Shown: positions 2,233-6,918 of the stretch, one piece after another
Layout of the letters: each line of letters begins with the position of its first letter
How positions within the stretch are numbered: position 1 is the first letter of the stretch
From: Arsenophonus nasoniae DSM 15247
Lineage (GTDB): Bacteria > Pseudomonadota > Gammaproteobacteria > Enterobacterales > Enterobacteriaceae
Length of the DNA: 64,000 bases
Direction: 5' to 3'
Assembly (NCBI RefSeq): GCF_000429565.1
Contig: NZ_AUCC01000005.1
Location: 1 to 64,000 of the forward strand
Position numbers and translations under genes: made by a program
Notes under the pieces: model-generated
Told to the model about the DNA's origin: nothing
Seen by the model: the letters and a program-made list of their open reading frames with translations, nothing else
The model's database searches: none

Positions 2233-2241
2233 AATGATCGA

Positions 2242-2397
2242 CCTCCAATGGTAATCTGAAATTATTCACCACTTAGAGACGCGAACCTCATGGGTGGTGG
2301 ACGGAACGGAGTTCGCATTACCGGGATTACCATCCGGCCAGCTTTTCAGCTGCACCATCCAGTCCACCGTTGAAAGGTGTAGCTAGATTACGACATT
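2242..2397 (-). promoter_or_regulatory. Structured leader of the antirepressor mRNA with alternative pairings
   Basis: The leader contains ATGGTAATC (2333-2325), an exact 9-base complement of GATTACCAT (2256-2248), which sits just before the GGAGG ribosome site of the antirepressor. The same leader segment, extended to 2311 (through GGTAATC and ATGCGAA), is also complementary with interruptions to a stretch of the upstream C4-like RNA (TTCGCAT plus GATTACC). A second long-range pair is GGTGGAC near 2370 with GTCCACC near 2295. This layout would allow the upstream RNA to change access to the ribosome site. The pairings are seen in the sequence; the switch is inferred from the P1/P7 C4-ant system. 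Confidence 0.55.
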
Positions 2398-2475
2398 AAA
2401 AAACACGCTCGCAGCGTGTACATGTCGCGGTAATCACGGCAGGATGCGAATCCCGACACCTGATTTATCAGGTGC
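2398..2475 (-). ncRNA. C4-like antisense RNA of the antirepressor operon
   Basis: A predicted transcript of about 78 bases starts just after a sigma-70 promoter. It opens with a hairpin (CACCTGA / TCAGGTG, 2474-2457), contains an antisense segment (TTCGCAT...GATTACC, about 2448-2427), and ends in a hairpin with a T run (ACACGCT / AGCGTGT, 2419-2403, then TTTT). The size and the position directly upstream of an antirepressor agree with the roughly 77-base C4 RNA of phages P1 and P7, which is cut from the leader of the ant transcript and blocks ant translation. I judged this by structure and context, without a covariance-model search. Confidence 0.6.
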
Positions 2476-2481
2476 AAGTAA

Positions 2482-2511
2482 ACTATAGCGCATGATTTCT
2501 TCTTTCGTCAA
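2482..2511 (-). promoter_or_regulatory. Sigma-70 promoter of the C4-like RNA/antirepressor transcript
   Basis: On the minus strand there is a -35 box TTGACG (2511-2506) and a -10 box TATAGT (2487-2482), separated by 18 bases. The predicted start is near 2475, exactly at the first hairpin of the C4-like RNA. Confidence 0.6.
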
Positions 2512-2543
2512 TGGGTATTTTGTGGTTATAATTGCGTGGTAAT

Positions 2544-2619
2544 GGCTTATTAGCTCAGTTGGTAGAGCAGTGGACTCTTAATCCATCGGTCGCAGGTTCG
2601 AGCCCTGCATAGCCCACCA
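2544..2619 (+). tRNA. tRNA-Lys, anticodon CTT
   Basis: The gene is 76 bases long with encoded CCA. The D arm is GCTC/GAGC (2553-2568), the anticodon stem is GTGGA/TCCAT (2570-2586), and the loop CTCTTAA gives anticodon CTT at 2577-2579, reading AAG. The T arm is GCAGG-TTCGAGC-CCTGC (2592-2608). The acceptor stem GGCTTAT/ATAGCCC has a C-C mismatch at pair 3-70 and a T-G wobble at pair 4-69. E. coli has only TTT-anticodon tRNA-Lys genes. The gene stands alone inside a phage-like island, so it may be a prophage tRNA. Whether it is charged as lysine is not provable from sequence alone. Confidence 0.85.
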
Positions 2620-2639
2620 CTAGTTGTTATTCACACTAG

Positions 2640-2786
2640 TTAGCTTGTTGCTGCTTCCATTTCGGCAACAAGAATTTCCTCAAATTTTCTAATCGTTTTA
2701 TCATTGTATCGAAATGTTTCAACCTGCTTGTTACTGTAGAGCGATTTATCGAGATAGGTATCGCTATACTCTTTAATTTTTAGTAA
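2640..2786 (-). pseudogene. Remnant: C-terminal end of an unknown protein
   Basis: An open frame of 48 codons ends at a TAA (2642-2640) and includes protein-like sequence such as EYSDTYLDKSLYSNKQVETF and KFEEILVAEMEAATS. A stop codon lies directly upstream (TAG, 2789-2787) and there is no start codon or ribosome site, so this looks like the tail of a gene that has lost its beginning. It lies between the tRNA and the 3' end of ssrA, the usual place for integration scars. I do not recognise the family. Confidence 0.35.
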
Positions 2787-2906
2787 CTAACTTTCACGTG
2801 CATTTAAAGTGCACTTTCAAGTCCAATTGTTGTCATATCGATGTCAACTTAATTTTTATAACTTCCTGTTTTTAAAACTATTGTCCTACTGCTGACCATG
2901 TAAATT

Positions 2907-3270
2907 TGGTGGAGCTGGCGGGAGTTGAACCCGCGTCCGAAATTTCTACATCCTCGGTACTACATGCTTAGTCTAGTCTTTACATTCGCCAGCTAGCTGT
3001 GGACAGACACACTACTAACAGACTAGCCTGATTAAGTTTAACGCTTCAACCCCAAGCTAGGCATCCACGCGATCTCTTTTAGGTTTGACCTCTCTTGATC
3101 CCCGTCCTAAGAGCGGAGGCTAGGGAGAGAGGGCTCTGCGCAGGTTATTAAGCTGCTAGAGCGTAGTTATCGTCGTTTGCGACTATTTTTTTGCGGCTTT
3201 TTACGAGGCCAACCGCCCCTCGGCATGCACCTTGGGTTTCGCAAATCCCGTCGAATCCAGAATCAGCCCC
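2907..3270 (-). ncRNA. ssrA: tmRNA (transfer-messenger RNA)
   Basis: tmRNA rescues ribosomes stalled on broken mRNAs and tags the unfinished protein for proteolysis. The 364-base gene starts with GGGGCTGATTCTGGATTCGA at 3270 and ends with the T arm GGGTTCAACTCCC and encoded ACCA at 2907, giving an alanine-tRNA-like domain. The tag frame (3180-3148) encodes ANDDNYALAA followed by two TAA codons; E. coli has ANDENYALAA, so position 4 is changed from Glu to Asp while the protease-recognised LAA end is intact. smpB, encoding its partner protein, is immediately upstream. The 3' end is a well-known integration site, which fits the phage-like DNA that follows. Confidence 0.97.
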
Positions 3271-3326
3271 AAGTTGATTAATCAATTATATCAGAAAAAA
3301 ACTTAATAATGCTAGCACTTAGCTCA

Positions 3327-3809
3327 TTAACGGCCAGCATTTTTCATAATTCTTGCTTTGTCTAACTTCCATTCGCGCTCTTTAATGTCTGAACGCTTGT
3401 CATGCTCTTTTTTACCCTTGGCGACACCAATTTTGACTTTACACCAGGCATTTTTCCAGTAAAGGGATAATGCTACCGCTGTGTGTCCTTCGCGATTGAT
3501 TTTACCAAACAGGGAATCAAGTTCACGCTGATTTAACAATAACTTTCGGGTACGCATTGGATCACACACCACATGGGAAGAAGCTACATTTAGTGGGGTA
3601 ATTGTTGCGCCAAAAAGATATGCCTCACCCTCTTTCAGTAAAACATAACTGTCACTAATATTGGCTTTGCCTGCACGTAGTGCTTTAACTTCCCAACCTT
3701 GCAAAGCTAAGCCCGCCTCGATTTCTTCATTGATGAAGTATTCATGGCGCGCTCTTGTATTTAGCGTAATCGTTGCCGAACCAGGCTTATGTGCTTTTTT
3801 CTTTGTCAT
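3327..3809 (-). CDS. smpB: SsrA-binding protein SmpB
   Basis: SmpB binds the tRNA-like part of tmRNA and delivers it to stalled ribosomes, acting as codon-anticodon mimic in the decoding centre. The 160-residue protein has the usual length and all family landmarks: [20 protein letters not shown] in the OB-fold barrel (about residues 26-46), [10 protein letters not shown], and the basic C-terminal tail [24 protein letters not shown] that folds into a helix in the ribosome. It lies 56 bases upstream of ssrA on the same strand and diverges from ratA, with a shared intergenic promoter region. Confidence 0.98.
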
Positions 3810-5256: not shown

Positions 5257-6918
5257 TTAAGCAGCAAGTAGATCTTTTGCGCTAGCTAGGATGTTTTTAG
5301 TGACTTCACTACCACCCAGTAAACGGGCAATTTCTTGTAAGCGGTTTTTTTTATCTAATAATTGCATTTGCGTTTCTGTTTCACAACCATTAGTTTGTTT
5401 GCTCACATAAAAATGGTGATGACCACACGCTGCAACTTGAGGTAAATGGGTAACGCACATAACCTGAGTTGAATTGCCTAATTCACGTAAGAGTTTTCCA
5501 ACCACCGCTGCGGTGGGGCCACTAATACCCACATCAACTTCATCGAAAATAAGGGCAGGCGTATCCATTTTTTTGGCTGTTATCACTTGTATGGCCAGTG
5601 CGATACGTGAAAGTTCACCACCTGAGGCAACTTTTATTAATGCTTGATGAGGTTGTCCCGGATTGGTTGTAACGTTGAACTCTACTTGGCTTGCACCATC
5701 AATTTGTAAATGTTCAGGATTAAAATTGACATCAACCGTAAAATAGCCATGCGGCATTGAAAGTTGATGCATACTGTTGGTGATTAATTGACTTAATTCA
5801 CTGGCATATTGTTGCCGTATTTGATGGAGTTTGCCGGCTATTTCTAATGCGTATTGATGTTGAGCTTCGACCTGAGTCGTTAAGTGGTCACAATCATCTT
5901 GTTGCTGATTAAGTTTTTCTTGTTCTGTCAGCAGTTGTTGATGTAATTCAAACAGTAATTCAGGGGCAACACGATGTTTGCGGGCTAAATTGACATATTT
6001 TGCGATGCGTTGTTCTAATTCAAATAGTTGGCTAGGATCTAGCTCAGTCCGGTCACCATAATGACGTAATTCATTACTCACTTCATGAATTTGGATCGAT
6101 GCTTCTTCAAGCATATCAAGTAAATGACTGAATTGATTACTTACCGAAGTAAGTTCATTAATCTCTTGCTTTACATGATTTAGCATACTGATAATATTTT
6201 GTTCTTCGTTGTCATTGAGAATTTGTAATGCATTTTGACTTAAGGAAAGAAATTGTTCACGATTGGCCAATTGCTTATATTCTTGTTCGAGTTTTTGATA
6301 TTCATCCGCTTGCGGTTTCAGTTCATCTAATTCTTTAAGATGATATTCAATAAGTTGTTGGCGTGATAGGCGTTCAGTGGCTTGCTGTTGAAATTTTGTT
6401 AATTCTTGACAGCTTTGATGCCAATTTTTCCAGGCCAGTTTCATTTCAGCTAAGGTAGCCGTTTGGTTGGCGTAAGTATCCAACAGATATTTTTGATGCT
6501 GATTATCTAATAGTAATTGGTGAGCGTGTTGGCCATGTATTTGAATAAGTAACGTCCCCAGTTCACGTAATTGGGATAAGGGAACTGCGGTGCCGTTAAT
6601 AAAACCGCGTGATCGTCCATCAGCCGTGATAGTTCTGCGCAACAAACATTCATTATGGTTATCTAATTGGTAATTTTTTAGCCAGTCTTGCGCTGAGGGA
6701 GTGTCAGTAAGGGAAAAATGGGCACAAATATCGGTACGAGAAGCACCAGGACGAACGATATTGGTATCAGCTCGGTTGCCTAAACATAAACCCAATGCAT
6801 CGATTGCGATTGATTTGCCAGCGCCTGTTTCGCCGGTAATGGTAGTCATACCGGGATAAAAATCAATTTCCAGTTTGCGGACAATGGCAAAATTATTGAT
6901 GGTTAATTGAATAAGCAT
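5257..6918 (-). CDS. recN: DNA repair ATPase RecN
   Basis: RecN is an SMC-like ATPase that acts early in recombinational repair of double-strand breaks in the cytoplasm. The 553-residue protein has an N-terminal half ABC domain with Walker A GETGAGKS near residue 30, a central coiled-coil region (about 150-370), and a C-terminal half with the ABC signature [13 protein letters not shown] and Walker [11 protein letters not shown]. The start at 6918 is preferred to the longer frame at 6945, because AGGAG lies 7 bases upstream and the protein then begins [13 protein letters not shown] as in E. coli. Two LexA boxes upstream show SOS control. Confidence 0.97.

Follow-up and report, generated by a model that had tools for sequence, protein, structure and literature searches.

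The DNA in front of a Bro-N gene near the left end of the window (the whole stretch of 64,000 nucleotides from Arsenophonus nasoniae DSM 15247 that was analyzed) raises the question of which small RNA controls this gene, through which pairings, and whether such a switch is new. A sequence-only reading had seen there a promoter, a short RNA and a leader arranged on the plan of the C4-ant system of phages P1 and P7, and had considered it perhaps a new combination of C4 control and effector.

Layout of the isrK-C4-Bro-N locus

As shown in Table 1, the minus strand of the locus holds matches above the curated Rfam cut-offs to both C4 (RF01695) and isrK (RF01394, with its terminator), and Bro-N, the first gene after C4, starts 57 bases past it. 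The RNA of about 78 bases with hairpins at both ends that the sequence-only reading had taken for C4 was recovered together with its intrinsic terminator, but Rfam assigns it to isrK, and C4 lies in what had been called the leader. The likeness to the P1/P7 plan stood as far as C4-type control before Bro-N is concerned, with the roles of the two RNAs swapped, and the C4 match that had been predicted was found. In the window, the c4-a1b1 element (RF03163) stayed below its curated cut-off, three stem pairs of the C4 match are non-standard, and C4 is not followed by icd and ant as in a P1-type C4-icd-ant operon. Judged by its family matches and pairings, the locus belongs to the C4 class as a regular, well-formed representative of the APSE type.

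Table 1. Features of the locus, in window positions, and one related stretch given by its own address. The a and b labels follow the convention of the P1 record; APSE records use the opposite order.
Feature	Position	Strand	Basis
Promoter-like TTGACG-18-TATAGT	2511-2482	minus	10/12 consensus matches
isrK-family leader RNA (holds a1 and b1, ends in intrinsic terminator)	2475-2398	minus	RF01394, 67.5 bits, cut-off 50
c4-a1b1 element, under its cut-off	2488-2436	minus	RF03163, 37.2 bits, cut-off 46.7, E 4.9e-8
a1 TTCGCAT, complementary to C4 junction	2450-2444	minus	sequence pairing, in isrK
b1 GATTACC, complementary to C4 loop	2435-2429	minus	sequence pairing, in isrK
isrK terminator hairpin, then T5	2419-2403	minus	terminator-like match
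C4 antisense RNA	2374-2290	minus	RF01695, 59.2 bits, cut-off 45
b' ATGGTAATC, loop of C4 hairpin P3	2333-2325	minus	Rfam alignment and pairing
a' TGCGAAC, C4 junction	2317-2311	minus	Rfam alignment and pairing
a2 GTTCGC, Bro-N leader	2286-2281	minus	sequence pairing
b2 GATTACCAT, 1 base before Shine-Dalgarno GGAGGT (2246-2241)	2256-2248	minus	sequence pairing
Bro-N, putative antirepressor, 252 aa	2232-1474	minus	PF02498 and phrog_245
tRNA-Lys (CTT), phage-type neighbour	2544-2619	plus	94.5% over 73 bases to APSE-7 trnK
GtrA flippase, phage-type neighbour	839-1234	minus	PF04138, 4e-14
sRNA-Xcc1 behind the window promoter block (L145)	G004:C1:1168600-1170300		

The promoter that had been claimed exists as a sequence, with the pattern by itself no better than chance (5 instances between 1240 and 2910 against an expectation of 4.1), so that the significance of the sigma-70 match alone was rejected. 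Related genomes contain the surrounding block (2480-2521) in six stretches, with 98-100% identity, and in five of these an RNA and a gene of antirepressor type lie downstream.

The 78-base isrK RNA folds at -28.2 kcal/mol (z -2.67; 2 of 200 shuffles equally good), and for C4 between 2368 and 2292 none of 200 shuffles equals the native fold (z -4.20). When the 251-base leader is folded as a whole, a1/b1 pairs with a'/b' at long range (z -5.66), in a fold resembling 'structure A' of Gifsy-1, which is described as translationally silent (PMC4825925). The putative processing site carries GG in 116 of 117 C4 matches, followed by A or T in 103; an RNase P site of the form GGW has been described (PMC5320573), and GGT is found at 2368 in the window C4. 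The mature C4 is thus predicted to span about 2368-2292 (some 77 bases), probably after a cut at this RNase P-type GGT site.

The BRO-N effector and the insect-symbiont genome were both borne out: the Bro-N domain occupies residues 11-104 of the 252 residues (PF02498, 3.6e-12, 47.2 bits, cut-off 25.6), and the protein matches the anti-repressor Ant family phrog_245 (9.5e-36), an annotation from which we infer that it would act as an antirepressor here. The same genome encodes a Rha protein (P0001) whose C-terminal part has 96% identity to residues 113-252 of the window protein, and the Rha gene with this common part (L019) sits under another C4 address; the shared part covers 1474-1896 of the window. 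By this comparison, the window Bro-N is a mosaic by exchange of the N-terminal domain.

The flanks are of phage type, with the tRNA-Lys and gtrAB-like genes beside the 3' end of ssrA, and the DNA of the gtr region matches gtrAB of serotype-converting phages. The contig starts at window position 1, so that the region to the left is unseen. Among the matches listed, besides those of Candidatus Arsenophonus triatominarum (G007) and of G002, the ssrA matches of relatives begin at 2901-2910; that of G002 begins at 2815. A. triatominarum carries an isrK-C4 unit at the same ssrA-side site, 91% identical over window positions 2240-3400. Another observation at this site concerns G004, where three sRNA-Xcc1 copies (G004:C1:962403, 964184 and 964417) lie within 3 kb of the ssrA 3' end (match at 965224), adjoining the site at which both the window and A. 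triatominarum have isrK-C4.

Pairing of C4 with two target sites

In the window, b' is complementary at 9/9 bases to b2, which ends 1 base before GGAGG, exactly as the sequence-only reading had it, and the a' junction TGCGAAC matches a2 GTTCGC farther up the Bro-N leader. On the upstream side, the extended pairing with the short RNA that had also been proposed was found within isrK as 14 bases in two blocks (7 + 7), GGTAATC pairing with 2435-2429 and the junction ATGCGAA with 2450-2444.

We compared these pairings with those of 117 C4 matches (E <= 0.001; two of them below the Rfam cut-off) taken with their flanks from the 19 C4-bearing genomes among 59 relatives. After removal of 10 duplicate addresses, 107 distinct C4 addresses were counted, each scored against a flank by adding up the two best Watson-Crick runs that lie in order. 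None of 106 non-cognate leaders reached the 9-base run with the window C4 or its downstream two-block score of 15 (9 + 6 bases), whereas 6 of the 106 upstream regions of non-cognate loci attained the upstream score of 14. Over the 107 addresses, the mean score was 13.60 with the own leader versus 9.86 with the leaders of others (Wilcoxon p 4.7e-18), and 14.30 versus 10.77 with the upstream regions (p 9.6e-19); the covariation expected for homologous leaders was thereby found. Sense, reversed and complement flanks, used as controls over the same addresses, gave no excess (p >= 0.064). When the P2 arm replaced the address, the scores were 9.05 versus 8.83 downstream (p 0.03), with no excess upstream.

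The same held in the genus subset of 25 loci, nearly all of the Rha/Bro-N type (p 6.9e-6 downstream and 1.2e-5 upstream; controls p >= 0.055), a set chosen by place names that includes one orphan (C149) through its name prefix. Named phages served as positive controls: P1, N15, Gifsy-1 and all seven APSE rows scored 13-17 on both sides, one scored block of P1 sitting 85 bases past C4 and not at the annotated b2, and phiKO2 scored 15 downstream and only 12 upstream. In A. triatominarum, compared with the window over 2233-2540, differences occupy 18 of 45 positions inside the six elements (a1, b1, a', b', a2 and b2) versus 46 of 270 outside (p 0.001); the downstream pairing is preserved there with different letters (score 15), and the upstream score is only 11 by Watson-Crick pairs alone, a value reached by 64 of 106 non-cognates. 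Over the 107 addresses, the upstream a1/b1 and the copy at the ribosome site show covariation with C4 of about equal strength. This speaks for a function of a1/b1 and assigns IsrK the role of target-bearing leader of C4.

These results are consistent with the following scheme. Transcription from the promoter-like block would mostly end at the isrK terminator and yield a short IsrK-like RNA with a1 and b1, while read-through transcripts would run into C4, to be excised as the RNA of about 77 bases (probably by RNase P), and on into Bro-N. The loop and the junction of C4 would then pair with b2 and a2 of the Bro-N mRNA leader and hide the Shine-Dalgarno region; under this proposal the antirepressor stays off and the prophage repressor therefore remains active. 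In IsrK, a1/b1 would be a second target of C4, so that the free RNA could soak up C4 and release Bro-N, and in the long transcript it would lock C4 into the long-range fold. We put at about 85% the joint reading that the C4 antisense RNA represses Bro-N, with a1/b1 of IsrK as its second target, and that the locus is the immunity-control module of a prophage remnant adjoining the ssrA 3' end of an Arsenophonus genome. The small RNA address that matches the start site of Bro-N probably keeps the antirepressor off.

A possible, though rather unlikely, alternative is that C4 works mainly in cis, pairing with the nascent a1/b1 and steering the isrK terminator in the manner of the P4 CI RNA, so that pairing at the ribosome site would be secondary. 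The Gifsy-1 locus has been likened to P4 CI RNA, seqA and seqC (PMC4825925), and at a score of at least 13 upstream pairing without downstream pairing is kept by 23 of the 107 addresses, the reverse being seen in 9. The own genome has 17 C4 loci with 16 distinct addresses, 7 of which lack a leader match (8-11), and all 7 of these have an upstream match (14-16), one of the seven (C149) having only 116 bases downstream before its contig ends. Against this, both pairings are kept by 67 of the 107 addresses (neither by 8), at a threshold that non-cognate pairs reach in 4.5% of cases downstream and 10.0% upstream, and in the window it is the downstream pairing, 1 base from the Shine-Dalgarno sequence, that beats all 106 other leaders.

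At G000:C137 in the own genome (L017; 1859-1941 minus and 2237-2323 plus), two C4 loci lie back to back in less than 500 bases of DNA; a downstream match is present for one of them and absent for the other. The loci L026 (G000:C14) and L027 (G000:C64) have an identical C4 address and leader (score 16), and their isrK match upstream scores 11 and 15, respectively, a difference that looks like a recombinant of two address types.

It was also considered that the module has decayed and regulates nothing any more, which we regard as doubtful. In what the window shows, the surrounding prophage is incomplete, so that the module may be a relic, the seen flanks being the phage-type tRNA-Lys and gtrAB by ssrA and the rest lying beyond the contig start. 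In addition, the window C4 has the lowest score among the C4 matches of its genome (rank 17 of 17), and in the relative from the A. floccissimus symbiont the Bro-N frame is apparently split and pairing is poor (12 and 10). On the other hand, the Bro-N frame of the window is full length and both downstream matches are intact.

The model published for Gifsy-1, in which a small ORF (orf45) in place of C4 is translationally coupled to the antirepressor and IsrK opens the orf45 ribosome site in trans, was measured for isrK-orf45-anrP (PMC4825925) and has the first orf45 AUG inside C4 (positions 5-7), where ATGG stands in 102 of the 107 distinct C4s, but it is very unlikely to hold for the window, which has ACGG there, without a start codon, and in which ATG, GTG or TTG frames begun in C4 stop 24-28 bases past it, those begun behind C4 stop at 80 and none stops at the Bro-N start. 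An orf45-like coupled frame running through C4 to the Bro-N start was accordingly rejected for the window, and over the sample the stop falls 41-75 bases past C4, close to where the effector begins, in only 6 of the 107 loci (inside C4 in 35, up to 40 bases past it in 32 and farther in 29).

C4 effectors and sRNA-Xcc1 in place of C4

The genes that follow C4 are of several kinds. An ORF of the Rha/Bro-N cluster starts at most 1.1 kb past C4 in 40 of the 117 loci, and other first-gene clusters have representatives with AntA, HTH_35 (Ner-like), PAS, SymE and ankyrin-repeat domains, as found in a Pfam scan that used one shortened representative per effector cluster. At three loci of one genome (G011:C26:276208, C12:120226 and C12:627283; L059, L066 and L088), C4 lies directly upstream of a gene from the SymE toxin cluster and scores 14 with the leader; from this arrangement C4 there looks as if it were the RNA antitoxin of this gene. 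Ankyrin-repeat proteins, unusual targets for C4, follow it with strong leader pairing (15 and 17) at G055:C1:1305935 and 466442 (L127 and L128).

We also analyzed six stretches of relatives that have the promoter block of the window and no C4 match, four of which share part of the antirepressor gene as well. Five (L145, L146, L148, L149 and L150) carry sRNA-Xcc1 (RF02221, 63.5-74.3 bits, cut-off 53) and no C4; in L147 no sRNA-Xcc1 match was obtained with Rfam. Over the 32 bases CATTGACG...TATAGT, read by eye, four of the five sRNA-Xcc1 promoters equal that of the window and L145 differs at one position. The loop and the junction of the five RNAs match a site before the upstream terminator and the Shine-Dalgarno region of the next gene, some of the matches being short in L146 and L150. 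The next gene is Bro-N in L149 and Rha in L146; L148 is equal over the RNA, and its Bro-N frame looks interrupted.

sRNA-Xcc1 is present in 9 of the 59 relatives (8 above cut-off) and, in a sample of 274 genomes of the class, in 20 (12 above cut-off). For the pairing test, 59 of 73 distinct matches were used, the rest being without a locus, and removal of 6 duplicates left 53 addresses, 42 above and 11 below cut-off; the upstream tests comprise 51 loci, two having too little upstream sequence. The own leader scored 11.92 versus 8.78 (53 addresses, p 6.7e-8); for upstream regions the scores were 13.90 with the own and 10.42 with those of others (51 loci, p 7e-10). This excess was seen inside the genus (p 0.0026 downstream and 4e-4 upstream), outside it (p 7.2e-6 and 1e-9) and with the above-cut-off set alone (p 2.8e-6 and 2.6e-8), and two downstream controls show a small excess as well (complement, p 0.02; P2 arm, p 0.003). 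A score of at least 12 was attained on both sides by 33 of the 53 addresses, on the downstream side alone by 5, on the upstream side alone by 10 and on neither side by 5, non-cognate pairs attaining it in 6.7% of cases downstream and 20.6% upstream.

The consensus plan of sRNA-Xcc1 (P1-P2-P3) is that of C4, with an outer stem, a side arm, a hairpin with the address loop, a single-stranded junction and a closing stem. In contrast to C4, which belongs to clan CL00128, it has a separate covariance model with no clan given, a shorter P1 and a larger P2 arm. With the relatives of the window locus it has the promoter block and the effector families in common. Among its first-gene representatives, Rha, Bro-N, ORF6N and SymE domains were found, and 3 of 10 scanned had no Pfam match. 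In phage Aaphi23 it lies (86.1 bits) 38 bases before a gene annotated ant, and in phage PPwrbA_EC3734 (69.3 bits) 39 bases before a frame of 212 residues, with pairing on both sides in the two phages (13-14).

At G000:C79 (4321, 5735 and 6013), the own genome has an array made up of two copies of sRNA-Xcc1 and one isrK-C4-Rha unit; the sRNA-Xcc1 at 5735 sits just before the isrK promoter and its downstream score of 9 represents no match.

sRNA-Xcc1 was reportedly first described in Xanthomonas, in an original paper of 2011. It has so far been tied to the regulation of plant virulence and to vesicle cargo (PMC12189769, PMC12444791), and the cassette with sRNA-Xcc1 upstream of symE is given as the most widespread one in Xanthomonas integrons, for which a 'divergent regulatory mechanism' was suggested (PMC12444791). 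In PMC12189769, sRNA-Xcc1 and C4 are mentioned as rows of one table. Among the papers listed in a literature search, none names both sRNA-Xcc1 and an antirepressor, and a prior link may exist. DNA searches of plasmids with the sRNA-Xcc1/SymE locus and of E. coli genomes with the sRNA-Xcc1 stretch gave no match, and a SymE protein search of plasmids returned 5 records, none covering 80%.

On the strength of these pairings, we consider it quite probable that C4 and sRNA-Xcc1 are at least two interchangeable RNA families running one address-coded switch, in which the P3 loop and the junction of sRNA-Xcc1 would pair with sites before the upstream terminator and with the Shine-Dalgarno sequence of the next gene. 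In Arsenophonus it would replace isrK-C4 behind the shared promoter and before Rha/Bro-N. Elsewhere it would, like C4 in one genome, precede genes of the SymE toxin family, where the switch, in integron cassettes too, perhaps acts as an RNA-based antitoxin. As a C4-type switch, sRNA-Xcc1 looks new. If it does work like C4, it has a testable job, namely the antisense control of the adjoining antirepressor or SymE gene.

Comparison with known isrK and C4 systems

Phage P7 has a C4-icd-ant system as in P1. In P1, C4 is above cut-off with c4-a1b1 upstream, and a1, b1, a2 and b2 are annotated in the P1 record, which terms a1/b1 'putative'. There icd and ant1/ant2 come after C4, whereas in the window Bro-N follows directly; the Rfam scan of P1 46900-94800 yielded no isrK match above cut-off.

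In the isrK-orf45-anrP locus of Gifsy-1, isrK and C4 are both above cut-off, as in the window. The start of its transcript was set from the bases named in PMC4825925, which only 1 of 220 offsets fits; in this numbering the isrK match covers 1-77 and the C4 match 103-186. The mutations G28A/G31A fall in a1 of isrK (26-32) and C159U/C162U in a' of C4 (158-164), so that what was published as pairing of IsrK with orf45 is that of a1 with a'. STnc1160 is described as a stable RNA processed from the read-through transcript (PMC4825925) and is in all likelihood C4. The main text of that paper contains no occurrence of 'C4 antisense', 'C4 RNA', 'c4 repressor' or 'phage P1'. Extra STnc1160 is reported there not to have opposed IsrK, growth arrest becoming stronger, which fits ill with a simple sponge.

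Many C4 copies per genome have been reported in Acinetobacter baumannii (PMC5320573). With its 16 distinct C4 addresses, the genome of the window offers natural material for testing how a large number of prophages can be kept apart by RNA addresses.

In N15 and phiKO2, isrK and C4 are above cut-off at the head of the immA operon (antA, icd, antB), whose last gene is Bro-N-like and 24-26% identical to the window protein; C4 overlaps the first annotated gene, and unlike in the window, antirepressor and icd genes precede the Bro-N-like gene. The anti-immunity system of N15 has been described as controlled by a small processed RNA (title of a work cited in PMC4488713).

The closest arrangement is that of the APSE phages of Hamiltonella, which have isrK, C4 and Bro-N (P43) in the same order as the window. 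Annotations of isrK, of C4 with a'/b' and of the BRO-N gene, in this order, are given in eight records (LR794146-LR794152 and LR797923), and NC_000935 and NC_011551 carry the module without annotation; by Rfam, C4 and isrK are above cut-off in APSE-3 and in 9/9 further APSE stretches scanned. A literature search found no paper combining all the APSE and sRNA terms. The window Bro-N is 49-52% identical over its full length to its counterparts in 14 APSE records (52% to the BRO protein of APSE-3), and two records match only its last two thirds at about 41%. In APSE, Rha and phage genes come next, whereas gtrAB and ssrA lie alongside in the window. The pairing plan is the same as in the window in the seven APSE rows scored, and the addresses differ. 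The APSE isrK-C4-BRO records, together with N15 and phiKO2, refute the proposal that C4 control and this effector are newly combined here: C4 with Bro-N is already known, and the switch in the window is itself of a known kind.
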